Assembly (NCBI GenBank): GCA_027487685.1
Contig: JAIYDC010000144.1
Coordinates: 1-45,117 of the forward strand
Source: Pseudomonadota bacterium
Lineage (GTDB): Bacteria; Bdellovibrionota; Bacteriovoracia; Bacteriovoracales; Bacteriovoracaceae
Length of the DNA stretch: 45,117 bases
Reading direction: 5' to 3'
Positions 16,748 through 45,117 of the stretch are shown piece after piece. Under the pieces are notes generated by a model, which had not been told where the DNA came from, did no database searches, and saw only the letters and a list, made by a program, of their open reading frames with translations. The translations under genes and the position numbers were made by a program. Every line of letters starts with the position of its first letter. Positions within the stretch are counted from its first letter, which is position 1.

Positions 16748-16749
16748 TA

Positions 16750-26243: not shown

Positions 26244-26858
26244 TTATTGTTTAACTTCTATGATGCGAGGCCCACCGAAGGCAGAGTTAAGCCTAACACC
26301 CTTTGGAAATCCTTCTAGTGTTCCAGGGATATAGCTTTGTGAATAGTCTGTACGCAAGACCTCATGAATTCTTTTCTTCGAATCTAAGTAATTTTCCTCA
26401 TTCAAATTCAGCAAATCATAATTCTGGGAGTTATCTAGCTGAAGAACCAAAATTAAATTGGCCACAAAATCGAAGGCTTGATAGTGAGAAATATAGGGAG
26501 TTAGCCCCCTAAGTACTGTGCCATTTCCAAAAATTAAATAATCCAACAATTGAAACTTATACTGCGAAACCAGTGAAGTGCTTTTCCCTTTAAGGTCAGG
26601 TAATTCACGCTTTCTTTCTATCAGCCTATCAAATCTTTCTTCAGAGCGCTTTGAAACAGAAAGCATAGAAGAGCTTCGTACCAGCTTTATAACAAGATCT
26701 TCTAAAATAGATAGGTGAAGAGTTCTAGATTCAGCCTTTAATACTGACGGGAAATCTGTTTCAAAGAAAGTTTGAAATTTTGAAATAATGACACGTATAG
26801 ATTCAGAATCTTTATCAAAAGTCGCAAAATCTTCTAGCAATAAATTTATCCTGTCCAA
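26244..26858 (-). CDS. Hypothetical protein of the integrated element
   Basis: About 204 aa from a TTG start at 26858 that has TAGGTAGG just before it. The frame stays open to 27008 but that extension would run through the XRE gene on the other strand. The product is helical and charged (LLEDFATFDKDSESIRVIISKF; SERRFD-type regions), with no membrane segment and no family I recognise. It lies between the excisionase-like gene and the XRE regulator, which is divergent to it. It could be a regulator or cargo. Confidence 0.5.
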   Translation of the reverse strand: MDRINLLLEDFATFDKDSESIRVIISKFQTFFETDFPSVLKAESRTLHLSILEDLVIKLVRSSSMLSVSKRSEERFDRLIERKRELPDLKGKSTSLVSQYKFQLLDYLIFGNGTVLRGLTPYISHYQAFDFVANLILVLQLDNSQNYDLLNLNEENYLDSKKRIHEVLRTDYSQSYIPGTLEGFPKGVRLNSAFGGPRIIEVKQ

Positions 26859-26933
26859 CAATAACCTACCTAAATTTCCCAACTCTCCAAATCTAACCTG
26901 GAAATGTTCAAAAACTTTTTTCAGGAGACTATC

Positions 26934-27149
26934 ATGATGAACAAAAAATTCCAAATTATTGCATTTATGTGGATGAAGGGCATGAATCAAACGACGCTTG
27001 CGAAGCAAGTGGGTTGTAGCGAATCCAGGCTCTCAAGAATACTCAATTCCCATGTACTACCATCTAAGACAGAAACAGAGGCAATTGCGAAAGCCTTAAG
27101 TGTTTGCCCATCCAAGGTAGAAAAAATGATGCTTGGAGGTGGCAAATGA
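26934..27149 (+). CDS. XRE-family HTH regulator (small)
   Basis: A 71-aa protein that is one helix-turn-helix: FMWMKGMNQTTLAKQVGCSESRLSRILNS then PSKTETEAIAKALSV. AGGAG lies six bases before the ATG at 26934, so I prefer that start to the longer frame. It overlaps the primase start (ATGA) and is probably the early-gene switch of the element, controlling primase and the divergent gene. Confidence 0.8.
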   Translation: MMNKKFQIIAFMWMKGMNQTTLAKQVGCSESRLSRILNSHVLPSKTETEAIAKALSVCPSKVEKMMLGGGK

Positions 27150-29410: not shown

Positions 29411-29695
29411 GTTTCACTTTTTTAACCATTGCTCGTTGATTGTTCTAAAAATATTTCTAGGTGTTTTTGATGTGATAAATGAAAGTAGATAGAAGATGAA
29501 AAGGTGAAGATCTTAGCAAAACTGATTGGAAGCAGTTCGTTTAACGTATAAGGAGAAAAATAATTTCTCCGCAAGGCTTGAAGAATCGGGCCCTTAACGC
29601 GCCGGGTCCACGGCCCTGCATATTCACGGGCCGGTAAATAAATTCAAGAATTTACCTGAAGATACCGAAATAGGTATCGGCGGAGGAGTTCAGAA
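29411..29695 (+). ncRNA. Highly structured leader/intergenic RNA candidate
   Basis: This 285-base gap has no gene but several inverted repeats in a row. They are GGAGAAA/TTTCTCC (29552-29570), GGGCC/GGCCC/GGGCC blocks (29588, 29612, 29628) that can pair alternatively, AAATTC/GAATTT (29640-29653) and GATACC/GGTATC (29661-29678). Alternative pairings and a terminal RBS (GGAGG) before the 77-aa gene suggest a leader with switching structure or an origin of replication for the adjacent primase. No known RNA family is recognised. Confidence 0.35.
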
Positions 29696-29929
29696 ATGAT
29701 TTACGTTGAGGCATCTTCAGCTGAGTGGTCTCGTAAGCATCAACTACCAATCACGGCCAGAAAATGTCCGTGCTGCCATAGCGAATTTCCTTTAGATGTT
29801 CCAATTGCTATTACAGGTTACAGGGGCTTCATGATGCAAAGACATGACTGCCCGGAAAAAAAATATCCGCGAATCTATAAGCCCGTTGATCAAACTTTAA
29901 AACTGGCCTGGGCCAGGGCTTTGTATTAA
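29696..29929 (+). CDS. Small Cys-rich (zinc-ribbon-like) protein
   Basis: A 77-aa protein with CPCC (residues ~24-27) and, downstream, HDC, a possible zinc-binding pair of knuckles. GGAGG precedes the ATG. Not identified; it resembles the small Zn-finger proteins of phages and satellites. It follows the structured leader and is followed by a GC-rich hairpin (GGCGGTTT...GAAGCCGCC). Confidence 0.5.
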   Translation: MIYVEASSAEWSRKHQLPITARKCPCCHSEFPLDVPIAITGYRGFMMQRHDCPEKKYPRIYKPVDQTLKLAWARALY

Positions 29930-29957
29930 AAGGCGGTTTCCGTCCTAGAAGCCGCCC
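29930..29957 (+). terminator. GC-rich hairpin between convergent genes
   Basis: GGCGG(TTT) and (GAA)GCCGCC flank a short loop in the gap between the rightward 77-aa gene and the leftward 173-aa gene. There is no good T run, so it may be a weak bidirectional terminator. Confidence 0.4.
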
Positions 29958-29966
29958 CGATTTACT

Positions 29967-30488
29967 TTAAGCAATTACCTTCGAACCAAATCCTTGCACA
30001 CGGAAACCCATCCGGCGAATAATGGCCGAAAGTTCCTCGGAGAATACGCCGTCAAGAACAGCCGCCTTAAGATACAGCTCGTTCTTTTGGCTCGGAAGGC
30101 GAGCCTCGACATAGTACCCGTCTTTGTTTCCGCCGCCGCCACCGCTTCCCTGGCGTTGTCTCTTTTCCATTTCAAAACGAATTTCTGTGAGAAATCCCAG
30201 TACAAACTTGAGAGCCTTCTCATCTGAAATGGTTGTCTCATCTCCAAAAACAACTGGAAGATAGCCTTTTGGAGTTGGCGCAAGAGATACGGACACTGTG
30301 TCCAGGGTTTCAAGTTGAGCAGCGATATGAATTTCATCATCGACTGACTTAACAAGTACCTGCTTCAGAATTTCGCCAGCATCGCGCTCGCTAAACTGAA
30401 AAAGTCCGTGGTTGGTGAAAGGGGCCTCTTCGAAAAGTTCGAAGATTCTTGCAGCTTCCTGATGCTGCTTTTGTGTGAGTTGAAGCAC
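29967..30488 (-). CDS. Hypothetical protein of the element (173 aa)
   Basis: A 173-aa soluble protein. I used the GTG at 30488 because AGGAG is seven bases upstream (longer frames start at 30521). The N-terminus (LQLTQKQHQEAARIFELF) is helical, there is a Gly-rich, basic linker (KRQRQGSGGGGGNKDGYY) near residue ~130, and the end is mixed. I recognise no family. The Gly linker suggests two modules. It may be an accessory gene of the element. Confidence 0.5.
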   Translation of the reverse strand: MLQLTQKQHQEAARIFELFEEAPFTNHGLFQFSERDAGEILKQVLVKSVDDEIHIAAQLETLDTVSVSLAPTPKGYLPVVFGDETTISDEKALKFVLGFLTEIRFEMEKRQRQGSGGGGGNKDGYYVEARLPSQKNELYLKAAVLDGVFSEELSAIIRRMGFRVQGFGSKVIA

Positions 30489-30551
30489 AATAGTTCTCCT
30501 TGTTATGCCTGTTGATAACACAGTGGGCCGAAAGGCCGCACAAAAATCTCA

Positions 30552-30581
30552 TTGACAGACAAATACGAGGCCAACTATGAT
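30552..30581 (+). promoter_or_regulatory. Strong sigma-70-type promoter
   Basis: TTGACA (30552-30557) and TATGAT (30576-30581) with an 18-base spacer. It probably drives the 168-aa and 203-aa gene pair, leaving a ~210-base leader (30588-30801) that holds no gene I can see. Confidence 0.6.
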
Positions 30582-30801
30582 CTGTTTACTGAGTAGGCCA
30601 TAGGGGGGCTCGCAAAAGTCTAGATTCGTCTGGGCCGTTAAAAGTCCTCCTTCGCTGAAAATACTCCATTGAATCACTCTAAAGCTTGGCCTTATCAATA
30701 TCTAGTGTCTAGCAAAAAACATCGCCAATTTTTTGACGGTTTTCAGCCGCGGTAATTTCTTCTGCGCCTTTCATCATTTCGATTAATTGCGATCATTATA
30801 A

Positions 30802-31308
30802 GTGAAATTCAATAAAGGAAGGCGTGTGGGAATTATCAACATCTGGTTAGAAGAAACAAAGAAGTACAAAGTCATTATTGATCTTGTCGCGCATATGAAT
30901 TTTGAACAAAACGGAAAGCGGCCAATCGCTCACCTTTATCCCTCTCTAGAGAAGCTTCTGGATGAGTGCCAACTAACAAGTAAGGGAATAGCGCGAGAAC
31001 AACTACCTCCTTTGTGTTCCGGAAGGGCGCTTTTTGAATCAAACCTTTCCTACGAGCAAATCGAACAAGAGGTAAATAAGGCACACGACTTCTTTAATCA
31101 AAATTTGAAATTAATACAGAAGGCCGCGGAAGGAAAAGTTAAGAAGCAGCTTACTTATGTTCAAAGGGTCGAAGTTGAAAATTATTTCATGAAAAGTTTA
31201 AAAGCAATTCCTGCCAAAGATTTCTTATTCGTTGGAGATGAAGCTCATCTTTATGATGATGATATAAATTTATTTAAGAGAATGTGTGAATTTCTCGCCC
31301 GTTATTAA
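30802..31308 (+). CDS. Hypothetical cargo protein (168 aa), first of a pair
   Basis: A 168-aa soluble, helical protein (starting MKFNKGRRVGIINIW; alternative GTG at 30826). It contains a coiled-coil-like central region (YEQIEQEVNKAHDFFNQNLKLIQKAAEG). No family recognised. It is followed by a membrane protein gene one base after its stop, so the two are one operon from the strong promoter at 30552. The pair may form a soluble sensor with a membrane effector, as in many phage-defence operons, but this is only an inference. Confidence 0.5.
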   Translation: MKFNKGRRVGIINIWLEETKKYKVIIDLVAHMNFEQNGKRPIAHLYPSLEKLLDECQLTSKGIAREQLPPLCSGRALFESNLSYEQIEQEVNKAHDFFNQNLKLIQKAAEGKVKKQLTYVQRVEVENYFMKSLKAIPAKDFLFVGDEAHLYDDDINLFKRMCEFLARY

Positions 31309-31309
31309 C

Positions 31310-31897
31310 ATGAGTTCTAATCTACTATCCATTGGACAATATTTTTATTCATCGGCTTCTCAAGTTTGGGCAACGGTAACTATTTTCTCATGTGTTTTGA
31401 TTCGGGAAAGAATGATTAATTCTAACAATGAAATGGATAAGTGCTTTCTTATCTGTCAGCCCAAAGTATTAAAGTTCAAATCAACCCTCAGGAACTTTAA
31501 CCGAATTGCTAATAATGATGAGAAAATATTTGAAAACCGGAATGATTTTTTTGATTTTATAGACCGTTATCCTAATGAAGATGCTTTCTTTGATGTAAGT
31601 AACCAGGGCATTCCTACAATCGGAAACGCAGCAGATGATCAATCAAATTTAAATGATATTTCATCTGTAAAAAGATACGCCTCAATATTCAGGGGACATC
31701 AAAAAAAATTCGATGAGGATAAAGTCTCAATACGGAATTTCTTTTTTTCAGGTTTTGCATTAACCGTTGCAGCACTTCTTTTTTTGTTAATTGTTGAATC
31801 TCTTACTATTTGCCCAAAGCTGTTTTTCTGCATCAGTGCAGTTTACTTAATCGCCAACATTATTTGGATTTACAAACTATATCGCAAGTTTGTTTAA
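31310..31897 (+). CDS. Membrane protein, partner of the 168-aa protein
   Basis: A 195-aa protein with an N-terminal hydrophobic segment (~20-32) and two C-terminal transmembrane helices (~145-166 and ~172-192, CPKLFFCISAVYLIANIIWIY). The middle ~110 residues are polar and probably cytoplasmic. The ATG at 31310 is one base after the previous stop; the longer frame from 31286 would overlap it. Membrane proteins of this shape in islands often act as effectors in abortive infection, but no motif here proves that. Confidence 0.55.
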   Translation: MSSNLLSIGQYFYSSASQVWATVTIFSCVLIRERMINSNNEMDKCFLICQPKVLKFKSTLRNFNRIANNDEKIFENRNDFFDFIDRYPNEDAFFDVSNQGIPTIGNAADDQSNLNDISSVKRYASIFRGHQKKFDEDKVSIRNFFFSGFALTVAALLFLLIVESLTICPKLFFCISAVYLIANIIWIYKLYRKFV

Positions 31898-31899
31898 GT

Positions 31900-32424
31900 T
31901 CATTGGCGCTTATTTTTCAAGTTATTCAGCTGATCTTCTAGTTTAAATGCTTTCGGTCCATCGTGTTTTCGCTGAAGAGATTTTTTGGAAATCCAGCGTA
32001 TATCTTGTGCCCAATAATGGACCGTGGAGTAATCCAAAGTAATTCCCGGCCACTCCACAAATTTTTTATATCTTCCGACATATTCACCTTTGGTTTCTCT
32101 AATATCCTTATCCCATTTGTAATGTTTTTCTAAAACCACAGTACCTTTTCTGTCACTTACCTGAAAAAAAATCGTGTAAGACTTCAGTTCTTGGTCAGGA
32201 AGTCTTTCTGTAGAAGTTTCCCATGTAACGGCACATCTACGAGTCAAATAGTCACAAGTTGTATCTGGTTTTAGTATTTTAAAACCTATTAAGTCCTTAT
32301 CCGACCCCGTAAACTTTTCGCCCACTAAGTTGACCCAAGCCTTAGGTTTTCCACTCTCATACGTTTGTGAAAAAGAAAGCTGGCAAATTAAACCCAGCAC
32401 TGGAACAAGAACTAATTTTTTCAT
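31900..32424 (-). CDS. Secreted hypothetical protein
   Basis: A 174-aa protein with a clear signal peptide (MKKLVLVPVLGLICQLSFS, cleaved near residue 19) and a polar mature part with two Cys (CDYLTRRC) that could form a disulfide. No family recognised. It reads leftward from the XRE gene upstream, nine bases apart, and probably shares its transcript. Confidence 0.6.
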   Translation of the reverse strand: MKKLVLVPVLGLICQLSFSQTYESGKPKAWVNLVGEKFTGSDKDLIGFKILKPDTTCDYLTRRCAVTWETSTERLPDQELKSYTIFFQVSDRKGTVVLEKHYKWDKDIRETKGEYVGRYKKFVEWPGITLDYSTVHYWAQDIRWISKKSLQRKHDGPKAFKLEDQLNNLKNKRQ

Positions 32425-32433
32425 GCGTTAACC

Positions 32434-32721
32434 CTATTGTTTTTTAATTCTTCTAAGAACGACTTCAAAAACCCCTGCATTTATTTCTTGGGTATACTCT
32501 TCAATTGAGTCTCTCGATTTCGTCTTCTCTCCGTAACAAAGCTCTTCAATTGAAAGACCGAACACATTGGCCACTGCTCTTACCTGGTCAAGGCTTTTAG
32601 GCTCGGCTCCACTCAACCAATTATGCAACGTTTGCTTGGGAACCTTGGCCGCTTGAGCCAACTCTACTAAGTTGATCTTTTCCTTGGTCATCAAGGTTTT
32701 TAAATTATTACTTAACTTCAT
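32434..32721 (-). CDS. XRE-family HTH regulator with acidic C-terminus
   Basis: A 95-aa protein. The HTH is LVELAQAAKVPKQTLHNWLSGAEPKSLDQVRAVANVFGLSIEEL (~18-61), and a charged tail follows. I chose the ATG at 32721, which has AGGA at a good distance, over the longer frame. The AAGTAGA repeats upstream (32847-32875) lie about 130 bases before its start and may be its operator. It is a candidate maintenance regulator of the element. Confidence 0.7.
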   Translation of the reverse strand: MKLSNNLKTLMTKEKINLVELAQAAKVPKQTLHNWLSGAEPKSLDQVRAVANVFGLSIEELCYGEKTKSRDSIEEYTQEINAGVFEVVLRRIKKQ

Positions 32722-32846
32722 GTCTTCTATCCTACGGACTGAATCCGTTTCAAAATGAGTTAAATCCCTCACAAGGGACAAGTATCCCTCGTGAGAGACA
32801 AGCTCTTCAGAAACAAAAATATGGCTTAATAAATTTGAAGAACGAC

Positions 32847-32875
32847 AAGTAGACACGAAGTAGACTCAAAGTAGA
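32847..32875 (+). repeat. Three AAGTAGA heptamers spaced 11 bp
   Basis: AAGTAGA at 32847, 32858 and 32869, exactly one helical turn apart. The same heptamer appears twice at the opposite end of the element. Candidate integrase/excisionase arm sites or an operator for the adjacent XRE gene. Confidence 0.6.
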
Positions 32876-32974
32876 TTTCTACAGTCACGATCAGTAATGA
32901 TCTGTAACAATGAGAATTTTGAACTTTGATAAATTACTGAAACTTCTTGTTTGTGATTTAAAAAACTTACGCGA

Positions 32975-32997
32975 AAAATGCTAAGTTTTGCTAAGGT
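32975..32997 (+). repeat. Arm-type repeat, right end of the element
   Basis: AAATGCTAAGTTTTGCTAAGG, with two GCTAAG units ten bases apart, closely matches the left-end repeat (24786-24808) in the same orientation. Confidence 0.6.
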
Positions 32998-33031
32998 CTA
33001 AAAATTGGAATTGAGATCTCGGATTTTAAAA

Positions 33032-33043
33032 TGGCGCAACCGG
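33032..33043 (+). repeat. Proximal att site within tRNA-Arg 3' end
   Basis: TGGCGCAACCGG, identical to the copy at 24763-24774. It is part of the intact tRNA, so the element restores the tRNA and leaves its own duplicate at the far end. Confidence 0.75.
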
Positions 33044-33108
33044 TACGATTCGAACGTACGACCTCTTGATTCGTAGTCAAGTGCTCTATCCAACTAAGCT
33101 ACGGCTGC
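33032..33108 (-). tRNA. tRNA-Arg (anticodon ACG)
   Basis: The complement folds into a cloverleaf: acceptor stem GCAGCCG/CGGTTGC, anticodon stem CTTGA/TCAAG with loop CTACGAA, T-loop GTTCGAATC and encoded CCA. The anticodon ACG reads CGN Arg codons after conversion to ICG. The 3' end serves as the attachment site of the integrated element to its left. Confidence 0.95.
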
Positions 33109-33202
33109 GTAAAGTGAGTTTCTAGTTTTAAATCAAGAATCCCCAGTTATCAAGAATGAATTTGAAAGAAAGCAAGAAAACTAGTTCCGCTTTTTCAAGC
33201 GG

Positions 33203-33538
33203 TTAAAAACCTTGGTCCTCATTATCTTCATAGGTTATCTCCTCCACTTTACGGTCCTGCAAGTAAATGACTTTCCGGATTAGCTTTCCATGTGAGTCAT
33301 AAAAGAGGGATTCTCCATCACGGGTACCTTGCTCATCATAGACGATTTCTGCTTCTAATTGACCATCACGAAAATACTTACGAACAACACCACTGGGTAT
33401 ATCCCAAGACCAACTTTCAAGACTATTAGCATAGAGACCGATTTCAGCAATTTGGCCATTATCGTGATAAACAATTCGTTTTGAAAACGTTCGACCATTT
33501 CTTTCGACGAAAGAAACCTCAGTTTTGGTTTTGGACAT
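33203..33538 (-). CDS. MORN-repeat/YwqK-like protein
   Basis: A 111-aa protein of repeated YxxxGQxxEIxxY units (KRIVYHDNGQIAEIGLY, RKYFRDGQLEAEIVYDE, SLFYDSHGKLIRKVIYL), as in MORN repeats and YwqK antitoxin-like proteins. The function is unclear; they are often found with surface or toxin-antitoxin proteins. I chose ATG 33538 because an extended -10 (TGGTATAAT) lies six bases upstream, which points to a leaderless mRNA; a longer in-frame start exists at 33604. Confidence 0.6.
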   Translation of the reverse strand: MSKTKTEVSFVERNGRTFSKRIVYHDNGQIAEIGLYANSLESWSWDIPSGVVRKYFRDGQLEAEIVYDEQGTRDGESLFYDSHGKLIRKVIYLQDRKVEEITYEDNEDQGF

Positions 33539-33544
33539 GAGAGG

Positions 33545-33553
33545 ATTATACCA
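33545..33553 (-). promoter_or_regulatory. Extended -10 promoter (leaderless start)
   Basis: TGGTATAAT on the minus strand, with the ATG of the MORN-repeat gene only six bases downstream, so the transcript would begin at or next to the start codon. Confidence 0.45.
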
Positions 33554-33770
33554 AAGGAAGTAAGAAGATGGGCCAATGAACATGTTTAAAAAAGAAAACG
33601 CCAAAAAAACAACGCTTCAAGCAATCAGTATAGTAAACAGTATTTATTCATTGCGCGGATAAAAAAACAAAATTTATCGTTACCTTTTTGACGAGTCCCT
33701 TGCTGAGATCCTCGGATAATAGAGCTGAGGGGGCCTTCTCAGGGAGGTAATTGCAAGCGACTTTCACCCT

Positions 33771-35099
33771 CTAGGGACTGGCAAGGAGGGACCTAATTTG
33801 AGTTTGAATACAGCTCGCACCTACTCTGTTCAGTATCAATGGGGTGGTGGTAGCGGGGGCAGAGAGAGTCACTGGCGTCCTTATAGCTTCACTAGCACTC
33901 ATATTGGCCAGGGCCCGCAGAGACCTTATTTCCGCTGGCGCTAATGTGGATAAAAATCTCGCACAATCCGGAATACCTGAGCCCCTTGGGCCATCGCAGA
34001 CCTTGAATTGAATTCTGGCAATCTGTGAGGCAAGACTCTGTCTTGAAGCATTGGAATTCCTTAAAATTTCATTGCGTAATTCTGGATGGGCAGCAATAAG
34101 CTGGTCAAACTCCTCAGCTGCTCTGAGTTTTAGCTCGGCCTGTTCCTGCATCGTGGGATTATTAGTAAGTCTTTCTAGAGCAGGATAACGGCCGGGGGCG
34201 CTCGCAACGAATTCACGGGCCGAATCAGCAACGTAAAATTCCACGTAATCCACAAACCCTATAGGGCTATGAGTTACGCCTCTATCAAAAAAATGATAAC
34301 CGAGAAGTGACCTCCAGGAATCATCTGGGAGGATTCCAATGGGAGTTAGAGTTACTCTCCCTGACGGAGCATTGGAAATTCCTAAACCTTGTGCCAGAGC
34401 ACGAAGATCGGTTTGACTTGCATTTCCTGCAGCTTCTCCGAAATAGCTTTGTCCTAACCTGTTGAGTGTGGGGTTCTGCCAAACACCTTTGCCATCTTGT
34501 AACAAAGCCCTCATCAGTTCTTCAGCTGTAGTGTTAGCAGGAAGCCTTCTTACAACATTTACTTTCGATGGATCTAAATCGAGAGAGTACACAATCCTTC
34601 CATTTTCAAGAACTCGGCCCATCGGTTGAAGAACGTGCTTTGTTTCATCCGGCCAAAGCTCTCCGGCATTTACCATGATATCATAGTGCCTTGCTTGACC
34701 TCTTACTCGATGATGACCGTCAACCGCAATGGCTTGATCAGAACCAATCATAAAAACCGAAGCTCCCTTGCTCCGACCTTGCTGCTGGAGTAATGCTATG
34801 GTCTTGACGAACAATCGTCTATCTTTAGGGGAGTAGTTCATTGACCGCATCATCCTCCTGCCATCCGCGGCGCTACTTAGTAGAAGGTTCTCAATATCTT
34901 TGACCATTCTCTCGGGAACAATGTGGTCTGGAGCAAACCGAGTCGCGAGACCCTGCACTTGCATTTGAGCAACATTGACGACACCCACGGCGTACTGACT
35001 ACCACCAATTTGCTCTGGCCTAATAGCTAAAGCCGTTATTGCAAACAAAGAACTGGTAATCAGAAGAAAAAATTTAACGAGATTAAATACTTTTCTCAT
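33771..35099 (-). CDS. Secreted ParB-like nuclease-domain (ParBc_2-type) protein
   Basis: A 442-aa protein starting at ATG 35099 with an N-terminal signal peptide (MRKVFNLVKFFLLITSSLFA). The mature part holds a VDGHHRVRGQA motif (near residue ~138), characteristic of ParB/sulfiredoxin-like domains of the ParBc_2 type. The rest is Ala-rich. This domain in exported proteins is rare and the substrate unknown, so function is open. An upstream ATG at 35129 is possible. It is a single gene flanked by small kinase and MORN genes. Confidence 0.6.
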   Translation of the reverse strand: MRKVFNLVKFFLLITSSLFAITALAIRPEQIGGSQYAVGVVNVAQMQVQGLATRFAPDHIVPERMVKDIENLLLSSAADGRRMMRSMNYSPKDRRLFVKTIALLQQQGRSKGASVFMIGSDQAIAVDGHHRVRGQARHYDIMVNAGELWPDETKHVLQPMGRVLENGRIVYSLDLDPSKVNVVRRLPANTTAEELMRALLQDGKGVWQNPTLNRLGQSYFGEAAGNASQTDLRALAQGLGISNAPSGRVTLTPIGILPDDSWRSLLGYHFFDRGVTHSPIGFVDYVEFYVADSAREFVASAPGRYPALERLTNNPTMQEQAELKLRAAEEFDQLIAAHPELRNEILRNSNASRQSLASQIARIQFKVCDGPRGSGIPDCARFLSTLAPAEIRSLRALANMSASEAIRTPVTLSAPATTTPLILNRVGASCIQTQIRSLLASP

Positions 35100-35331
35100 C
35101 AAATGATATCGGATTAAAATAGAAAACATTTAAAATCTTAATCCGACGAATCCTATTCAGCAGTAACAGCCGCCGACAACTCATAGTAATTACTGAGTGG
35201 CGAGTCGCAAATAAACAATAATTCCCGTTACTTTTAGCATCCAGCTTGGCCAGCATCAGGTCAATTTCTAATGGGAAGCTTGCGGGTGCTGATCACAGTT
35301 TGGATCTTTGATCTGATCAACGAAACATCCA

Positions 35332-35871
35332 CTAAAACAAGCGTAATGTCTTCACATTTGCAGTTATCATTATCAGCAATTCTTGAAAGCTCTCGGCCAC
35401 AGATTTCCCACTTGTATCCAGGATGATACGATAATCATTCCAGGGCTTATAATCACGATCCAGAACTTCCTCCCAGGTTGGCAGTACATGACCTGGGATT
35501 GTGGCCATCCTACTTTCCACACGTCTTTTATGCTCTACTCTGTCTGAGCATATTATTTCCACATTCAGAAATGGAGCATTCGCTTTTTTTGCGACGTCAT
35601 TCCATTCATTTCTCGTAATGGGCCAACCATTCACAGATTCTGCTAAAACAATATTACCCACTCTAAGATTTTCTTCTGCTATCCAATAAGACAAGCGATA
35701 GCCCATTCCATCAATTTGAGTAATTCCACAGACATCTTTAAGGCCTTGCTCTATAGTATCTATCCTTACATATGTTGCTGAGAGGTGTTCTGCGAGTTTA
35801 AAAGATAGGGTAGATTTTCCTGAACCTGGTAAACCCGAGAATATAATGAGCAGTCCTTTATTCGTGCTCAT
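35332..35871 (-). CDS. P-loop kinase (AAA_33/zeta-type small kinase)
   Basis: A 179-aa P-loop protein with Walker A GLPGSGKST (~14-22), RIDTIEQGL near residue ~38 and the usual RVEHKRRVESR lid region (~112-122). Proteins of this kind phosphorylate small molecules, including antibiotics. The ATG at 35871 shares bases with the TAA of the upstream GNAT gene (TAATG), so the two are translationally coupled; this supports the start over the longer frame. Confidence 0.75.
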   Translation of the reverse strand: MSTNKGLLIIFSGLPGSGKSTLSFKLAEHLSATYVRIDTIEQGLKDVCGITQIDGMGYRLSYWIAEENLRVGNIVLAESVNGWPITRNEWNDVAKKANAPFLNVEIICSDRVEHKRRVESRMATIPGHVLPTWEEVLDRDYKPWNDYRIILDTSGKSVAESFQELLIMITANVKTLRLF

Positions 35872-36356
35872 TATAAAAAAAGCTCCATTTCTAAACAATC
35901 AAAACACCGTTCATTCAACTTACGATAATGCTTAATGATTCCGATTTCAGTAAAACCAAGTTTTTTGTAAAGCTTAATCGCAGCTACATTATCCGTATAA
36001 ACTGAGAGTTCAACTTTCTCTAAACCGATATCTTTTGCATGCTTTAAAGCTCGGCTAAGTAACTGATTCCCTAAACCTTTACCCCGAAATTCCTCGATCA
36101 ATCCCATCCCAAGGAAACCACGGTGTGCCAATCTTGGATTACCTGCGGGTGTGATATCGGCCCAACCAACGACGATGCCATTTTCAACGGCATAAAAGAC
36201 GGGCGAATTATTAGAAATAAGCTTTAATTGAAAATTGGTGGTCTCTTCTAGCGACTTTGCTTCAATCATTTCAATGTAAATGTGTTCTCTTGCAACTCGG
36301 TCAAGGGCTTCGTGAAAACTTTTTAAAAGAGGCTCTGCTGGATAAACGATTTCCAT
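35871..36356 (-). CDS. GNAT-family N-acetyltransferase
   Basis: A 161-aa GNAT with acetyl-CoA motif EEFRGKGLGNQLLSRALKHA (Q/R-x-x-G-x-G/A form) and AIKLYKKLGFTEIG. The substrate is unknown; a small amine or an antibiotic is possible. It is coupled with the small kinase gene downstream by a TAATG overlap, so the pair may act on one compound. Confidence 0.82.
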   Translation of the reverse strand: MEIVYPAEPLLKSFHEALDRVAREHIYIEMIEAKSLEETTNFQLKLISNNSPVFYAVENGIVVGWADITPAGNPRLAHRGFLGMGLIEEFRGKGLGNQLLSRALKHAKDIGLEKVELSVYTDNVAAIKLYKKLGFTEIGIIKHYRKLNERCFDCLEMELFL

Positions 36357-36418
36357 CTAAAAATGCTACTTCCATAAAAGCTGGCATGGCCAATTAAACT
36401 GAGATTGAACTTTTGAAA

Positions 36419-36444
36419 TAAAAAAGCCCAGAATAAATCCGGGC
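36419..36444 (-). terminator. Intrinsic terminator after tRNA-Ser(GCU)
   Basis: Reading leftward, GCCC GGATTTATTCT GGGC is followed by TTTTTTT. It is about 40 bases beyond the tRNA-Ser 3' end and fits as the terminator of the tRNA transcript. Confidence 0.7.
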
Positions 36445-36482
36445 AATTTCAATAATCAAAATGAGATTACGGTTTCAAAAAG

Positions 36483-36572
36483 TGGCGGAGACGATGAGAT
36501 TTGAACTCATGGAAGGAATTACCCTTCGCACCCTTAGCAAGGGTGTGGTTTAAGCCACTCACCCACGTCTCC
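36483..36572 (-). tRNA. tRNA-Ser (anticodon GCU)
   Basis: The complement is a long-variable-arm tRNA: acceptor GGAGACG/CGTCTCC, anticodon stem CACCC/GGGTG with loop TTGCTAA, a hairpin variable arm (GAAGGGTAATTCCTTC), T arm and encoded CCA. Reads AGC and AGU codons. Confidence 0.95.
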
Positions 36573-36604
36573 GCATATTGGCTTAAAGAACACTACAAAA
36601 AATA

Positions 36605-36694
36605 TGGCGGAGGACTAGGGATTCGAACCCCAGGTAGGCGTTAACCCACGACAGTTTTCAAAACTGTTGCCTTAAACCACTCGGCCAGTCCTCC
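36605..36694 (-). tRNA. tRNA-Ser (anticodon UGA)
   Basis: The complement has acceptor GGAGGAC/GTCCTCC, anticodon stem ACAGT/ACTGT with loop TTTGAAA, a long variable arm and encoded CCA. Reads UCN codons. It lies 32 bases upstream of the tRNA-Ser(GCU) gene and is probably co-transcribed with it. Confidence 0.95.
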
Positions 36695-36878: not shown

Positions 36879-38528
36879 TTGGCCAGTCTTAAACTCCACA
36901 TTTGCAGAGACAATAAAACAGACCGCGTCATGAGTCAGCATGTCTTTGAGGCAGCACTGATATCTTTCGTTGAGGCAATGAACCATCTTGGCTTAACTGA
37001 AACCACGGTTTCTATCTATAGCTCTGAAATTCTTGCTCACCAGGAACTTGCCTTCAAGGGAATTGGGCGCTTCGGCATTATTTTCCAAGGGGTGAAGCTT
37101 AAGTGGGAGTTACATACCAAAGTTTGCCATCTCAGATCGGAAGACCTCGAGCTCTTAAATCGGTTCCAGGTTGAATACCATATAGAGCTCGACGAAAAAG
37201 CAGTTGCGGCCCATTCCGAAGAAGATGCGCCAGGCAGCATTTCCTCTCGGGGGCCAAGACTTCCTTGGAAACTACTTAGAGATCATAAGATACCGACCCA
37301 TATCAACTCCATGATGATCTTTGGAAACAATCAGTACATAAAAGATATTGTAGAGGTCGCAAAAAACTACAGCATTAAGACCATCCACCTCAATCCCATT
37401 GATGACCTTGTTACAATACCTCCAAAGCTGGCTCTAGAGTATTATCGAAAGGCCTATTACTATGCTTTAGACCGGGGAGTTGAGGTCACAGGACCCTGGA
37501 GCAAAGTCCTTCAGAACTACCGGGGCCAAAAGACAAAGGTGTTAAACCTTCCGGAGCACCTAACCCTCGACGTCAATAGCGACGGCTCTTGCTACATTAG
37601 TCTCGATAGGTCCGGTACCCAGAAGCTCAACCTCCATATCGATGGCCTTATGATGTTCTTCTACAGTGGCGGCTGGAAGCAACTCTGCGATGAAGTTGTA
37701 TCAAAAAATGACCTGGCTTGTAATGGCTGTAAAATTAAAGAGTACTGCTTCGGAGAGGCCATCGAGCAGGCCCGTGAAGATCTTGGTGAATATGCTCATA
37801 CTACTTCATACTGTGAATTCTACCGTGACTGGATTAGCTTTTTGACGCGGCCGATATTCCTTCGGAGGAGTAGGGAGGTGGAACTATTAAGTGTTATACC
37901 CGAAAAACACCTTGGAGCGTTTAGCATAAAACTCGAGGAGGCGATTGCATTTCTATCAATACGCCTTTGGCCTTTGGACAAACCGGTTAAGGTTCTGATT
38001 AGCGAATATCATGAGGAATTACTTTCGTCCTCGCGGCAGTACTTCTTACCGGAATGGACCAAAGCAACAACCGGAAAGGGAACACTCTTTCACAAAGGAC
38101 CAAGACCGACGCCCCACATGATCCATGAACTTACCCATGTCTTTCTCTATCTCAAGGGAATCTCTCTACCGGTCTGGTTTGAGGAAGGTGTTTGTGAATG
38201 GCTGCAAAATCCGGAATTTGACAGGACACTACTCATAGATTCGGTTCGGAAAATGCCGTTGAGTAACTTGCCAGACCTGCTAGCTGGAAAAACGAATATG
38301 ATCTCCCTCGATCAGAGCAAGCCCGGTAGTAACTCACTTTATATTCAGGCACAGGCCTTTGTCGGAGACCTCATTTCATCACGAATGCATATGGACCTAA
38401 GCCAGCTGCTGCTTGAATGCTTGGTGAATCCCTTGGACACAGTCCTGAGGAGGAAAACTGGCCTCGACGCTATTGAACTCCTAGTCCGATTTGAAGCGAG
38501 AATCAGTGAGCAAGGTTCTTTAAAGTAA
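36879..38528 (+). CDS. Degenerate radical SAM/SPASM-like protein fused to an HELTH metallopeptidase
   Basis: A 549-aa protein starting at a TTG with AGGAG six bases upstream. Residues 1-~330 look like a SPASM-type radical SAM scaffold: the start LKLHICRDNK and the VMSQHVFEAALISFV helix match the usual first strand and post-motif helix, but the CX3CX2C cluster motif between them is absent. SPASM-like cysteines remain (C281xxC284, C290, C312). Residues ~330-549 form a zinc peptidase domain: HELTH (416-420) and WFEEG (E435/E436). So it may bind or trim a peptide rather than cleave SAM. It is the first gene of the putative RiPP cluster and ends four bases from the oxygenase. Confidence 0.7.
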   Translation: MASLKLHICRDNKTDRVMSQHVFEAALISFVEAMNHLGLTETTVSIYSSEILAHQELAFKGIGRFGIIFQGVKLKWELHTKVCHLRSEDLELLNRFQVEYHIELDEKAVAAHSEEDAPGSISSRGPRLPWKLLRDHKIPTHINSMMIFGNNQYIKDIVEVAKNYSIKTIHLNPIDDLVTIPPKLALEYYRKAYYYALDRGVEVTGPWSKVLQNYRGQKTKVLNLPEHLTLDVNSDGSCYISLDRSGTQKLNLHIDGLMMFFYSGGWKQLCDEVVSKNDLACNGCKIKEYCFGEAIEQAREDLGEYAHTTSYCEFYRDWISFLTRPIFLRRSREVELLSVIPEKHLGAFSIKLEEAIAFLSIRLWPLDKPVKVLISEYHEELLSSSRQYFLPEWTKATTGKGTLFHKGPRPTPHMIHELTHVFLYLKGISLPVWFEEGVCEWLQNPEFDRTLLIDSVRKMPLSNLPDLLAGKTNMISLDQSKPGSNSLYIQAQAFVGDLISSRMHMDLSQLLLECLVNPLDTVLRRKTGLDAIELLVRFEARISEQGSLK

Positions 38529-38532
38529 ATGG

Positions 38533-39114
38533 TTAGGTACCTACAAGATCCATCATCAGGTGGTACCGATTTTCCATCGAAAGATTCAAAACTCGGTGGG
38601 GCCTTCCCACATCAATAATATAGGCCGATCCATCTGCGGGGAGGTGCTCACGTCGATCTTTATACTCAAACAAGCAACCCTCGTTGGTAATAATGGGAAT
38701 ATGGAGTCGGAGCCGAAAAAAATTGCGAGGGGGGGAAGCGTCTTGATGCCAGTATGCCTGACTTTCTGAGTGCGGAACTAGAATGACAAGTCGAATACGT
38801 TCGATCAGTAAGTGCAAACGAGAAAGGTCTTCTTTAATCAGATCAATGTATTCATCGTAAATCGCAGTTTTAATTGTAAACCGCTTATCCTGAAAATCTC
38901 TAAGCAAACGAAGTCGTACCTCGTCGGAGACGGTCTCGTTAAAGATCTTTTCTCCGCTTTCCCAACCATCGTACACCTCTCCATTGCTAGAGGTGAGGGA
39001 CCACCCTCCCCAAAAACCTTTATTCTTAAGCCAAGGGGCGCCGTAGGCCTCAGCTTTATTGACAAGCTGAGTGAGCCTAGAGATGTCATAGTTTCTATGC
39101 AATTTAAGAATCAT
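38533..39114 (-). CDS. Aspartyl/asparaginyl beta-hydroxylase-like 2-oxoglutarate oxygenase
   Basis: A 193-aa protein. The double-stranded beta-helix iron site is H123-x-D125 (WHQDASPPRNFFRLRLHIPI) and H173 (RPHRVLNLS), with R183 to bind 2-oxoglutarate. This is the Asp/Asn beta-hydroxylase family, which hydroxylates protein or free amino acid side chains. All iron ligands are present. Convergent with the SPASM-peptidase gene and adjacent to the PhnD-like gene, it may hydroxylate the Cys-rich peptide; that link is inferred from the neighbourhood. Confidence 0.8.
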   Translation of the reverse strand: MILKLHRNYDISRLTQLVNKAEAYGAPWLKNKGFWGGWSLTSSNGEVYDGWESGEKIFNETVSDEVRLRLLRDFQDKRFTIKTAIYDEYIDLIKEDLSRLHLLIERIRLVILVPHSESQAYWHQDASPPRNFFRLRLHIPIITNEGCLFEYKDRREHLPADGSAYIIDVGRPHRVLNLSMENRYHLMMDLVGT

Positions 39115-39206
39115 TAAAATATCTGGCTTTTTTTAAATTTAAGCATAACTATAATTCATTTAAAATAAACATACATCGTAAAAATAAATTGCAGGATGAC
39201 TCGATT

Positions 39207-40268
39207 ATGACGTTTTTTATACTTATCCTACTCGTGCATTTCGAGATTAATCCAAGTCTGGCCCAAACGTCATCTAACGGTCCACAAATGAATGCTCCCA
39301 CAGCAGTAAAGCTGAGTGAGTCTACAGTGGTTCGATCTGCTCAAGATAAAGCTGATGTATCCCCAAAGGCCGGAAGGGAAGTTGAAGCTGCAGCTGAGAA
39401 AAAACTCCCACTCCTTGAATACAAAATCTTCGGAGAGCTCTATCCAGGCTTTAACAAAGTATCAGAGCCGCCTCCAACCACAGATGAGAACGCGGTTAAT
39501 GAATTAAAAAAAATTGGCCTCAAAATCAATGTCACCCACGGGATAGTTAATGATCCAGTTTTTACCCGGGAAATGCTTTCGAAGTACGACGGCTTTATAA
39601 TGGTCTCTCATAAGATGCACCTTATGTCAGATGACTTTGTAATGGTATCAGGGCTAGATGTTGATTTTAAAGGTACGAGAAAGGGTCAGAATTGCAATAA
39701 CGAAGTCCAAGTCGTTACCAAGGAATCAAGTAAGATCACATCGCTTCGCGACCTCAAAGATAAAGATGTTGTCATGGAAGCACTGCCTATGACGCTAAAT
39801 TTCCTGCTTCGCTCACCAGTTAAATTCAAAAAAATCCACATCGCGCGAACACCCGAGCAGGCACTCCAGGAGCTAGTTAGCGGAAAGGTTCAGGCCCTAA
39901 TTGAAAGAGCTAACTTTTATGATAGCGGGACGACATTTTCTTACAGCCTCGGAAAAACACATAAAAACAAGTCGGTAGATAAGCCTGGCTATCTCGTCGT
40001 AGGTACTTCAAAGTCAAAGGTTCAGATCCCCTGCTACGGACTTGTGGTTAAAAAAACAAGTAACCTTGATATTGGTAAGAGATTACTCATGTTGGCGAAC
40101 AATCAAAAATTGATCGCCCCAAGTATATTCTTTAAACTAGGGCGCTTTGAACGGATTCGCGGAATTCCATATGAAGATTGGACTCTCATGAAAAAAATCA
40201 GGAACCAGCAGGTCATCATAGATTATAACAATGGGAAATTGCCCTTCGTCTTTAAGAAGCTACCTTAA
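39207..40268 (+). CDS. PhnD-like periplasmic substrate-binding protein
   Basis: A 353-aa exported protein. The ATG at 39207 gives a signal peptide (MTFFILILLVHFEINPSLAQ). The mature part has the two-lobe pattern of phosphate/phosphonate-type binding proteins: EYKIFGELYPGF (strand 1), KYDGFIMVSHKMHL, SKITSLRDLKDKDVVM (the PhnD 'linker' block) and PEQALQELVSGKVQALIERANFYDSG. No ABC permease or ATPase is encoded next to it, so it may act as a sensor or ligand carrier. First of a rightward operon with the glycosyltransferase and the unknown 278-aa gene. Confidence 0.7.
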   Translation: MTFFILILLVHFEINPSLAQTSSNGPQMNAPTAVKLSESTVVRSAQDKADVSPKAGREVEAAAEKKLPLLEYKIFGELYPGFNKVSEPPPTTDENAVNELKKIGLKINVTHGIVNDPVFTREMLSKYDGFIMVSHKMHLMSDDFVMVSGLDVDFKGTRKGQNCNNEVQVVTKESSKITSLRDLKDKDVVMEALPMTLNFLLRSPVKFKKIHIARTPEQALQELVSGKVQALIERANFYDSGTTFSYSLGKTHKNKSVDKPGYLVVGTSKSKVQIPCYGLVVKKTSNLDIGKRLLMLANNQKLIAPSIFFKLGRFERIRGIPYEDWTLMKKIRNQQVIIDYNNGKLPFVFKKLP

Positions 40269-40319: not shown

Positions 40320-41558
40320 ATGGGTAAAATTTCCGGTCTTGTGCTTACTGCGGGTATTGGCGACATCGCGAGCGTAAACTCTATCACCTTGTCGTTAGAA
40401 AAACTTTATTGTCAGCTCAGCAAGAATAACAAACTCCGCATCTATGACATAAAAGAAACTGAGAAAAGGCCTCCTTTACAATACAGACACACTGAAATCT
40501 TCGAAGAAGTGATAAGATCTCCACCTGAATATTTAATTATTATTCACCCCTTGGTTCCCCAGACTTTTTTCTTTCGTACATTGCTTGCTTTAACAGTCCA
40601 TACAAAGACTAAAATTGTTTTCCATATCTTTGGTGACTTCCTCCGCCGAGCAGACTCATGGCTTAGTCTCGAGGTAAAACTGCTCAGGAGGAATGTCTTA
40701 TTCCTAGCGCCCTCTCAATGCTACGCCTTATTTGTCGAACAATTCTTAGCAAAAGATTCAGTCATTAAGTCATTACCGTTTCCCGTTCAACGTGAAGACT
40801 TAGAGGTGAACCTTTCCTCCGCTTTTAGTAAGGATCCAGGTTCTATGTACTTTCTGTACACAGGAAGAATCACACCTCAAAAAAATCTATCTGCAGTTAT
40901 CGATTTTCTCGAAACCGTACAGAAAGGGAATCACTTTAAAATTGTCCTTCTTGTAGCGGGGGAATTCGAGTACTTCGAGAATCAAACGATCGGGATATCA
41001 GAAGATCTGGGAAGTGAATATTTTAAGCTTACTGCTAGGACTAAAGCTATTGAAGTACGTTTCTTGGGCCAAAGATCCAGGGGGAGCCTGGGGCAACTTT
41101 ATAGGGACAGTGATTACTATATTAGCTTCTCAACCCATCATGATGATGATTTTTGCCAATCAGCGATCGAAGCTCTTCTGAACGGCACCCCTATAATTGT
41201 CACAAGCTGGGGAGGCCACAGAGATCTAATAAATTTATTTCCGGACCAATCCATGGCCATCAAAGTCACTCCCGTTGAAGAGGGCCTTGATCTTAGTTGG
41301 GATCAAGACCTCCACAAAAAATTATTCCCTCGACATTCAGATTCAAAACCAGACCTCGAGAAAGTCGCTCGTTATTTTTCAATACCTGAAATTCTTTGTC
41401 GTCTAGAAGGTGAGCTCTTGAGTTTTCACGACCAAAAATTTAATGGGTTCTCTGAGCTTATGCATGAATTTGATAGCACTAAAAAAGGTCGCTCTGAGAA
41501 TGTGCTTTCCTTGACCAAGTATGAATCACTTTATCATGAATTTTGGGGCGACCCATGA
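40320..41558 (+). CDS. GT4-like glycosyltransferase
   Basis: A 412-aa GT-B enzyme. The donor-binding half has FLYTGRITPQKNLSAVIDF (~178-196) and the EALLNGTPIIVTSWGGHRDLI motif (~280-300), where the first Glu contacts the nucleotide sugar. The N-terminal half is diverged (the LTAGIGDIASVNSI start). The GT4 fold is clear; donor and acceptor are unknown. In this setting it could glycosylate the Cys-rich peptide or a cell-surface molecule. Its TGA overlaps the next ATG (ATGA). Confidence 0.75.
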   Translation: MGKISGLVLTAGIGDIASVNSITLSLEKLYCQLSKNNKLRIYDIKETEKRPPLQYRHTEIFEEVIRSPPEYLIIIHPLVPQTFFFRTLLALTVHTKTKIVFHIFGDFLRRADSWLSLEVKLLRRNVLFLAPSQCYALFVEQFLAKDSVIKSLPFPVQREDLEVNLSSAFSKDPGSMYFLYTGRITPQKNLSAVIDFLETVQKGNHFKIVLLVAGEFEYFENQTIGISEDLGSEYFKLTARTKAIEVRFLGQRSRGSLGQLYRDSDYYISFSTHHDDDFCQSAIEALLNGTPIIVTSWGGHRDLINLFPDQSMAIKVTPVEEGLDLSWDQDLHKKLFPRHSDSKPDLEKVARYFSIPEILCRLEGELLSFHDQKFNGFSELMHEFDSTKKGRSENVLSLTKYESLYHEFWGDP

Positions 41559-42391
41559 AACTAACGTTGAAACATAAGCGTGCAATAGAACTTCAAGATG
41601 AGGGCCCGGATCCTCTTTTTGGTCGCTGTGACATTCACAATAGGATACCGCTTCGACGCGAAGGTTTATATATGAGGCTTTGGGGGTTGTCAGTTGGACT
41701 AGAGCACAAAGAGTCAGGAATTGACCCGTTGTGGCTACGACAGTGGCTTCCCTGGCGTGAGGATCAACTATTTTATCGTTTAACCGAAGTCGCGACTGGT
41801 CCATCTGCTCCCAAGCGCATTCTTATAGTTCTTTACCTAGACCCAAATCTTATTCCTGTCTTTGTTATTGAAGATTATCTGAAGAAGATGATTGAAATAA
41901 TCGACCTTTCAACAACTGTTCTCGAATGCCTTCCAATTGTGGGCAGCTTCGACCAGTCGCGCAACTTACAATACATTCATAACGTGTACCATGCGTTGGC
42001 GAATTTACTTGGATCTGTGCCTAAATTTGTCTCTATGAAATCGATTATTAAATCAATATCCCTAAAGGACTGCCACTTCACCACATTGGGCCTAGAATGG
42101 ATCTGTAGCGACAGTTTCGTCGTAAATTTGCTTTGTTCTAAGGGGGCAGTGAATGTGAAGCTCTCGCCCTCAGGCAAGAACACCTGCATACTCCAAAAAA
42201 TTAATCTCTCTCCGTATCACGCTCTTGAGATATTTCAAGACACGGAGAATGAAAGGATACCGAGAACTATTCCTGGATCACAATTCTTCAAAACAAATTT
42301 CGGCCATGGAGGAGAGAGTATTAACATTGGGAATATCCCAAAGCCATTCTTTAACCTCTCCTATATCGAGGTCGAGGAGCTAGAGGCTTAA
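41555..42391 (+). CDS. Unknown protein coupled to the glycosyltransferase
   Basis: A 278-aa soluble protein, not recognised. I chose the ATG at 41555, which overlaps the glycosyltransferase stop (ATGA), over the TTG four codons upstream. It has a polar N-terminus with GRCDIHNRIPLRREGLYMRLWG, two mixed alpha/beta parts and no signal peptide or membrane helix. It has several Cys but no clear metal motif. It ends two bases from the stop of the Cys-rich peptide gene on the other strand, so tight packing points to a role in the same pathway. Confidence 0.6.
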   Translation: MKLTLKHKRAIELQDEGPDPLFGRCDIHNRIPLRREGLYMRLWGLSVGLEHKESGIDPLWLRQWLPWREDQLFYRLTEVATGPSAPKRILIVLYLDPNLIPVFVIEDYLKKMIEIIDLSTTVLECLPIVGSFDQSRNLQYIHNVYHALANLLGSVPKFVSMKSIIKSISLKDCHFTTLGLEWICSDSFVVNLLCSKGAVNVKLSPSGKNTCILQKINLSPYHALEIFQDTENERIPRTIPGSQFFKTNFGHGGESINIGNIPKPFFNLSYIEVEELEA

Positions 42392-42393: not shown

Positions 42394-42603
42394 CTAATAA
42401 CAAGGGGTACCACACGCACAAGGACCACCACATGGCCCACATGCACATGGAGCACCCAAAGCGTCTCCCGTGAATAGAGCAGCTATAATTTGGGCGGCAG
42501 TTAAGGCCTTAATGCCCCCGAAGGAAGTCGGTATCAAAGATTTAGTTGATTCATTTGTAACTGCTGAAAGAACTATATCGTCTTTCTTCTTATTATCCGT
42601 CAT
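42394..42603 (-). CDS. Putative RiPP precursor peptide with a six-Cys duplicated tail
   Basis: A 69-aa peptide. Residues 1-~50 are a leader-like region (acidic/basic start, then IKALTAAQIIAALFTGDALG). The C-terminal 18 residues are PCACGPCGGPCACGTPCY, with Cys at 53, 55, 58, 62, 64 and 68: two copies of PCACG followed by a short Pro/Cys or Gly piece. CGGAG lies four bases before the ATG. Upstream lie an 18-bp palindrome and the PqqD-like gene, which reads in the same direction. Precursor peptides of this form, next to a PqqD-like recognition protein, are typical of RiPPs. The class is unknown; thioether, thiazole or metal-binding products are all possible. Confidence 0.7.
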   Translation of the reverse strand: MTDNKKKDDIVLSAVTNESTKSLIPTSFGGIKALTAAQIIAALFTGDALGAPCACGPCGGPCACGTPCY

Positions 42604-42773: not shown

Positions 42774-43103
42774 TTACGGCGCTGTCTTCATCTTGAGCTT
42801 ATAATCATCAGAAAATGCCGTTGGTGAAGTCACAATAAGCTCATCTTTATCTAGCTCATCGATGAAGTCTATGACCTCTTTGCGATACTGGCCTGGCGCT
42901 AATTCATACTGAACTTCCAGCTGAGTTATGACTTCCTCGAGTGTTGATTTTCCATCGAGAAATTTAAGAACAAGCTTTGCGAATCCGTAAACAGCGAAGC
43001 CACGGTTGGTTGTAGGATTAAAAAGAAGTACTTCTTCTACGTTAAGGTTAGCGGAGTTCAAAAACTCTGCACTCAGAAAGACATACTGATTAAGATAACT
43101 CAT
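42774..43103 (-). CDS. PqqD-like RiPP recognition element protein
   Basis: A 109-aa protein with the PqqD/RRE fold pattern: a beta start (YVFLSAEFLNSANLNVEEVLLFNPTTNRGFAVYG), then helices FAKLVLKFLDGKSTLEEVITQLEVQYELAPGQYRKEVIDFIDELDKDELIV. The LDG and 'xxxxLxxxxxxxPGxxRxEVxxFIxELxxxELI' pattern is that of free-standing RRE proteins, which hold a precursor leader for modification enzymes. AGGAAGG precedes the ATG. It lies 170 bases upstream of the precursor gene, on the same strand, and diverges from the sulfatase-like gene. Confidence 0.8.
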   Translation of the reverse strand: MSYLNQYVFLSAEFLNSANLNVEEVLLFNPTTNRGFAVYGFAKLVLKFLDGKSTLEEVITQLEVQYELAPGQYRKEVIDFIDELDKDELIVTSPTAFSDDYKLKMKTAP

Positions 43104-43184
43104 GCTTGTTCCTTCCTAAACATTCATTTAACTTACCTAAAATAATACAGCGTGAAAAGCCAGGACTCGAGGGACAATGTAACG

Positions 43185-45117
<1,933 letters not shown>

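Follow-up and report, generated by a model that had tools for sequence, protein, structure and literature searches.

PqqD-assisted radical SAM (rSAM) RiPPs, as a broad class, start from a short precursor with a conserved leader and a variable core, encoded next to an RRE or PqqD-type protein. The precursor residues used are Val-Tyr in mycofactocin and Glu-Tyr in PQQ. Among the closest described systems, the mycofactocin locus (mftA-F) combines a short Tyr-ended precursor, a separate PqqD-like protein, a SPASM rSAM enzyme, a peptidase and a glycosyltransferase (PMC3023750). The ChlBH type is that of fused rSAM/alpha-KG-HExxH enzymes (cited in PMC12636437).

In a stretch of 45,117 nucleotides of Bacteriovoracaceae DNA (the window), we identified a 69-aa ORF and neighbouring genes that have these general features of the class: a short precursor, a conserved leader, a variable core and an adjacent PqqD-type gene. 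We put at about 75% the probability that this ORF encodes a RiPP precursor with the division of parts given below. Read from sequence, its leader is conserved, its tail varies and ends in Cys-Tyr, a PqqD-like gene lies upstream, the cassette context is conserved and there are signs of purifying selection.

The candidate precursor gene and its cassette

The features of the window cassette are as follows.

42394 to 42603, minus strand: precursor peptide gene, 69 aa (ATG at 42603, stop codon at 42394-42396; ORF call, homologues and alignments)
42451 to 42603, minus strand: leader, residues 1-51, no Cys, motif FGGIKALTAAQII, with ALGA at its end (alignment of 12 precursors)
42397 to 42450, minus strand: core, residues 52-69, terminal Cys-Tyr (ORF translation; a CY or CW end in 9/9 members from rSAM1-holding genomes)
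42774 to 43103, minus strand: PqqD-like protein, 109 aa, probable leader-binding RRE, directly upstream of the precursor on the same strand (PF05402, E 1.2e-9)
41543 to 42391, plus strand: P282, of no known family, partner of the adjacent glycosyltransferase (Pfam/NCBIfam, alignment, hhalign)
40320 to 41558, plus strand: GT4-type glycosyltransferase, 412 aa (PF00534, E 3e-14)
39189 to 40268, plus strand: solitary substrate-binding-protein-like protein, 359 aa (weak Phosphonate-bd and NMT1 matches)
38533 to 39114, minus strand: Fe/2OG-type oxygenase of the Asp/Asn beta-hydroxylase family, 193 aa, WHxD...H conserved (PF05118, 31.1 bits against 22.6)
36879 to 38528, plus strand: degenerate rSAM/SPASM domain fused to a gluzincin-like zinc peptidase, 549 aa (motifs, segment identities, AF2 model)

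A preliminary description of this DNA had claimed a 69-aa ORF with a Cys-poor leader, six Cys in its last 18 residues in two halves that both hold PCACG, and a PqqD-like gene beside it. Translation of the minus-strand ORF bears this out: it gives MTDNKKKDDIVLSAVTNESTKSLIPTSFGGIKALTAAQIIAALFTGDALGA followed by PCACGPCGG PCACGTPCY, with all six Cys in the tail, and the neighbouring gene scores 38.8 bits with Pfam PqqD (cut-off 23.4). GGAG lies a few bases upstream of the ATG. At least six Cys in the last 18 codons occur in one of 474 frames of the window, versus one of 57,371 frames in 100 Markov-shuffled windows. Stronger evidence than this composition comes from homologues and gene order: since a paralogue and relatives have a common leader, and the paralogue and a congeneric relative also the same gene order and a PqqD-like neighbour, the ORF is real rather than a chance frame. 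Codon changes between the closely homologous precursors of contig C1 (same genome) and of the congeneric genome G006 are 26 synonymous versus 9 non-synonymous, indicating at the codon level that the precursor is under purifying selection between close homologues. The plus-strand translation of the locus was rejected as not coding. We also dismissed a weak MitoNEET_N match of the precursor (E 0.23) as chance, and a lipobox reading of GAC, where the Cys is followed by Tyr and the stop and no signal peptide precedes it.

From rSAM1 to rSAM2, the window gene order is that of the C1 and G006 cassettes minus rSAM1. In those cassettes an rSAM gene (rSAM1), PqqD and the precursor face P273, GT4 and a second rSAM gene (rSAM2) fused to an HExxH domain; a 297-aa protein and a DUF1513 protein come after rSAM2, with substrate-binding proteins also in G006. 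In the window, a sulfatase-superfamily protein (43152-44711) takes the place that rSAM1 holds in complete cassettes. Sulfatase-like genes were also seen near the G065 cassette, and a beta-lactamase-fold serine hydrolase (PF00144) lies directly before rSAM1 in both C1 (L005:7627-8847) and G006 (L006:6740-8113). Complete cassettes encode two rSAM/SPASM maturases, one of them fused to a gluzincin-like zinc-peptidase domain. They also encode Fe/2OG-type oxygenases, a leader binder of PqqD type, and a glycosyltransferase whose partner is of no known family. ABC-2 exporters adjoin some cassettes.

The 297-aa protein is probably an Fe/2OG oxygenase, because it shows a WHxDE...H pattern and a profile comparison links it (E 4e-8) to the 193-aa Asp/Arg-hydroxylase-type protein of the window, which three other cassettes conserve. 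Of the 11 precursor genomes, 10 have the 297-aa protein, with no match in G355, and it is otherwise found weakly in one more genome; it is absent from the window gene set. The P297-like protein of G085 was seen to have no precursor-like ORF beside it. P282 is homologous to P340, a second such glycosyltransferase partner found elsewhere in the cassettes (hhalign E 1.3e-10), and P282/P273 and P340 each adjoin a GT4-type glycosyltransferase. The AF2 core of P282 (68-231) has only weak Rossmann/GT-B-like similarity (Z under 7), and neither NCBIfam nor Pfam has a model that covers the precursors, P282/P340 or the 297-aa protein. The window PqqD-like protein matches PDB PqqD 3g2b (E 1.8e-5, with profile) and is divergent (35-38% identity). 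In the tree of glycosyltransferases, the window copy groups with the C1 and G006 cassette copies (support 97/94) on a long end branch (1.33), which indicates that the cassette duplication is old. Proteins similar to the 359-aa substrate-binding-like protein are encoded at L006, L056 and L057.

Elsewhere in the window, a tyrosine-recombinase-like integrase (24848-25969, by eye), a primase/helicase-like 768-aa protein (27104-29410, by eye) and a tRNA-Arg (33032-33108) suggest that the region from 24848 to 36694 holds an integrated element. Two tRNA-Ser genes (36483-36694) come just before the cassette. A polysaccharide/sugar-nucleotide cluster with methyltransferase-like proteins (8597-20733) includes a NeuB-like synthase (15236-16747) whose C-terminal part is cupin-like; these names too were assigned by eye.

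Leader, tails and distribution of the precursor family

The window precursor has a paralogue on contig C1 of the same genome (G000:C1:22729-22893; 53% identity, E 9e-10) and a homologue in G006 (G006:C15, E 1e-8); of 58 close relatives, only 2 have one. When 369 genomes of the phylum were searched with a profile, 12 true precursors were obtained from 11 genomes; the window paralogue aside, the relatives come from ten other genomes. Precursor-like matches in G290, G198, G262 and G062:C119 were rejected as homologues, having the wrong frame context or being parts of other proteins.

It had been proposed that leaders and cores be aligned, and among the 12 precursors the leader is indeed conserved and the Cys core variable. 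All 12 have the leader motif FG(G/S/T)(L/I)xP(L/M)TxxQ(I/V) with small deviations (A for P in the window, S for T in G355); F, G and Q are invariant and P/L/T/I/L nearly so. The C-terminal residue is aromatic throughout (11 Tyr, 1 Trp). The nine precursors from rSAM1-bearing genomes end in Cys-Tyr (eight) or Cys-Trp (one) and have one to seven tail Cys. Four members, the window one among them, carry four to seven. The tails read PCACGPCGGPCACGTPCY in the window, CACACGGPCY in C1, CACACACGGPCY in G006 and CGGPCGPCAGGAGTACGSGGTGYPCTTSPCW in G355. A single tail Cys is found in five relatives (G072 and G061, GACY; G066, GPCY; G064, TACY; G073, SNCY), and the tails of a sister clade (G065, G069, G062) are SSYGG(G)Y, with no Cys. 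Thus, judged by the alignment, the constants of the family are the leader and the C-terminal aromatic residue, with a Cys beside the aromatic in all except this one side branch.

The preliminary description had made the duplicated PCACG the defining element, and in this it does not hold: the duplication is specific to the window copy. The C1 and G006 relatives do lie beside a PqqD-like gene; the duplication is not a family trait. In most rSAM-associated members a stretch of small residues (ALGA, NSAG, VSAG, AGAG) precedes the Cys tail, consistent with a predicted cleavage site there. Size and Cys spacing alone would fit an unmodified small Cys-rich structural or zinc-binding protein; however, homologues exist with one Cys or none, and together with the leader motif, the neighbouring PqqD gene and the co-occurrence with maturases they make this very improbable.

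The family is narrowly distributed. Across 84,980 species scanned, high-identity matches to rSAM1 were confined to metagenome genomes of Bacteriovoracaceae type, a single Proteobacteria-labelled genome (G006) and a single Oligoflexia metagenome genome, and two Sutterellaceae have distant relatives (28-30% identity). Gut Sutterellaceae metagenome contigs (L027:4592-11242 and L028:304-4612) carry rSAM1-like genes in tandem, three to five per array, and no precursor was identified there. In the open-access literature we found nothing specific on RiPPs in Bacteriovorax/Bdellovibrio or on a C-terminal Cys-Tyr RiPP. The family appears to be rare and undescribed, and a few bacteria related to bacterial predators apparently make its modified peptide.

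The rSAM genes, the 549-aa protein and a proposed route of maturation

All eight genomes with CY/CW precursors encode rSAM1, as do none of the three with Cys-less precursors (Fisher value 1/165, hand-computed, which overstates the link because the genomes are few and related and the three Cys-less precursors are one clade). rSAM2 is also absent from the latter three. G209 has a distant rSAM1 homologue and no precursor, and G073 (89% complete) has rSAM1 and a CY precursor, with rSAM2 not detected. Because rSAM1 tracks the CY/CW precursors, it is suggestive that Cys is the likely rSAM target; CY tails with rSAM versus SSYGGY tails without it form a natural experiment that points this way. Cys-less members keep the oxygenase, the glycosyltransferase and PqqD, and the pattern is suggestive of PqqD, the 297-aa oxygenase and the glycosyltransferase pair acting on both types of precursor. 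In the sister cassettes L055, L056 and L057 (G065, G069, G062), which have no rSAM genes, a different gene lies beside each precursor (a cupin, or 461- and 425-aa proteins with no Pfam match).

These tails also bear on whether the peptide is a metallophore or metal buffer, with a CxC-rich tail that holds copper, zinc or iron and is taken up or sensed via the solitary substrate-binding protein. The CACAC and PCACG runs would suit such a role, as would the substrate-binding-like proteins in several cassettes and the DUF1513 protein beside the C1 and G006 cassettes, a family that occurs in iron-uptake operons. However, the oxygenase, glycosyltransferase and PqqD are kept although the tail has a single Cys in five members and no Cys in three; the binding proteins have no cognate permeases at these loci, and we identified no cassette gene of the MNIO or YcaO type. 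By sequence, the tail would suit either the metal ligand or the multiply crosslinked product that the preliminary description suggested. The multi-Cys tails could bind metal, but this does not readily explain the single-Cys members, and as an account of the family we regard it as rather unlikely.

Unlike the C1 cassette of the same genome and loci of other genomes, which encode intact rSAM1 and rSAM2, the window cassette has no rSAM1, and its rSAM2 homologue, the 549-aa protein, has lost CxxxCxxC, with GGE changed to SSE and NTNGS to HTKVC. It keeps the SPASM Cys and HELTH...EGVCEW, and H416, E417, H420 and E436 are invariant in seven homologues. We checked three frames for an intact N-terminus concealed by a frameshift or a misplaced start and rejected this, as no CxxxCxxC is encoded upstream; the loss of GGE and NTNGS inside the frame also argues against sequencing error. 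The rSAM barrel is 34% identical to that of C1, versus 64-68% in four other genomes, and the peptidase domain 56% identical, versus 36-46% in other genomes; a single genome holds the degenerate copy. From these identities (34% versus 56%), constraint is relaxed on the radical domain and retained on the peptidase domain. The protein is thus a candidate pseudo-enzyme that dropped one of its two functions.

In the AF2 model of the 549-aa protein (mean pLDDT 74), the N-terminal part resembles the RiPP rSAM enzymes TigE, ChlB and CteB (Z 18-24), and the similarity of residues 326-548 is to M1 aminopeptidases and collagenases (Z about 11-12). With HExxH, a downstream Glu ligand and a predicted thermolysin/M1-like fold, the domain has the features of a gluzincin peptidase (clan MA); Pfam matches of the homologues' peptidase domain to BSP and Peptidase_MA_2 are weak and below cut-off. 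We rejected an alpha-KG hydroxylase (TIGR04267/IPR026337) as the identity of the HExxH domain, given this predicted fold and the failure of TIGR04267 to match the six HExxH domains up to E 5 or the loci up to E 10, although it does find true members in other parts of these genomes at E about 1e-18. One separate TIGR04267-matching gene, of about 430-510 codons (G000:C67:7573-7905, L076), is present in 34 of 58 relatives and 25 of 26 of the genus, and looks like a core gene unrelated to the cassette.

The losses could mean that the window cassette is a decaying duplicate whose precursor is no longer matured: rSAM1 is gone, the rSAM2 homologue has none of CxxxCxxC, GGE and NTNGS, and the 297-aa oxygenase is missing. 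We consider this improbable, since all remaining genes are open, the 549-codon frame included, deep divergence has left conserved positions in the precursor, the peptidase and SPASM, and the glycosyltransferase end branch (1.33) implies long residence without stop codons.

We favour a working precursor, for which the following route may be proposed. PqqD would bind the leader around its conserved motif and present the tail to the maturases. The rSAM enzymes would then modify the tail Cys, most likely into thioethers linking a Cys sulphur to a neighbouring carbon beside the C-terminal Tyr. Among rSAM chemistries we rank thioether formation as likeliest, since PapB, CteB and other RiPP maturases are among the nearest characterised relatives and since Cys and rSAM1 are tightly linked; taken alone, we rate it somewhat short of even odds. 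As the window has no rSAM1 and its own rSAM2 homologue is without the AdoMet [4Fe-4S] motif, maturation in trans would be needed, probably by rSAM1 and rSAM2 from contig C1, where the paralogous cassette has both intact. We infer this step from the co-residence of the two cassettes in one genome, and the divergent window PqqD may not share partners with C1. The 549-aa protein, kept for its zinc-peptidase domain, would cut near ALGA and free a tail of roughly 18 residues, which the Fe/2OG oxygenase could hydroxylate and the GT4/P282 pair glycosylate. Such a route would yield a small peptide rich in thiols or thioethers.

The main alternative to thioether formation is a mycofactocin-like conversion of the terminal Cys-Tyr. 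Here a small cofactor or signal would be cut from the last residues, with the rSAM acting on Cys-Tyr, the peptidase releasing the product and the glycosyltransferase decorating it, by the logic of mycofactocin and PQQ. In five precursors the leader is followed by nothing more than a single Cys and the final Tyr, and every precursor has a C-terminal aromatic. Mycofactocin loci likewise contain PqqD, rSAM, peptidase and glycosyltransferase, and there MftC decarboxylates the C-terminal Tyr and joins Tyr to Val. We nevertheless hold it unlikely: a dipeptide product has no need of the four to seven tail Cys in four members, including the window's, the Cys-less sister clade retains the Tyr without rSAM, and GT4 and the gluzincin peptidase belong to other families than their mycofactocin counterparts.

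We tentatively propose, at less than an even chance, an undescribed RiPP family in which two rSAM enzymes convert a C-terminal Cys-Tyr or Cys-Trp and a peptidase fused to one of them releases it. The window would be a satellite cassette, in which a maturase without radical chemistry survives as a dedicated peptidase and an expanded six-Cys precursor is matured by the enzymes of a distant cassette. The rSAM-gluzincin fusion would join maturation and leader removal in one protein and, if confirmed, the family would be a tractable system for learning what a C-terminal Cys-aromatic unit becomes.

Comparison with known systems

The cassette proteins have no mycofactocin model (TIGR03969, TIGR03962, TIGR03967) among the matches listed for them. 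Like mycofactocin, the family unites in one locus a short Tyr-ended precursor, a separate PqqD-like protein, a SPASM rSAM, a peptidase and a glycosyltransferase. In contrast to mycofactocin, its precursors end in Cys-Tyr/Trp rather than Val-Tyr, it has two rSAM enzymes and Fe/2OG oxygenases, its peptidase is gluzincin-like rather than creatininase-type, and its glycosyltransferase is GT4 rather than group 2. With PQQ biosynthesis (PqqA, PqqD, PqqE) it has in common a PqqD-type chaperone, a SPASM rSAM and a Tyr-containing precursor; the core differs, no PqqB/C/F was seen in the cassettes, and the window PqqD scores 29.6 bits with the PQQ equivalog model TIGR03859, below the cut-off of 46.

Both rSAM1 and rSAM2 match RiPP rSAM families and are near CteB, ChlB and TigE by structure or profile. 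The nearest by NCBIfam is PapB (83.2 bits for rSAM2 and 55.1 for rSAM1, against a cut-off of 340), and the SCIFF maturase model gives 58.2 and 20.8 bits, respectively, against 425. The family thus resembles the ranthipeptides and sactipeptides (PapB/freyrasin, CteB/SCIFF) in its related rSAM enzymes and Cys-rich cores, and departs from PapB and SCIFF in that its rSAM enzymes score far below the curated cut-offs, its RRE is separate where theirs is fused, and its cores have one to seven Cys with a fixed C-terminal aromatic. As with ChlBH, an rSAM/SPASM domain with a ChlB-like rSAM part is fused to an HExxH domain in a RiPP locus; unlike in the ChlBH enzymes, the HExxH domain is not matched by TIGR04267 and has a predicted gluzincin peptidase fold. 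By its sequences, the family is best placed among the PqqD-assisted rSAM RiPPs, outside the mycofactocin, SCIFF/PapB, ChlBH and PQQ systems.
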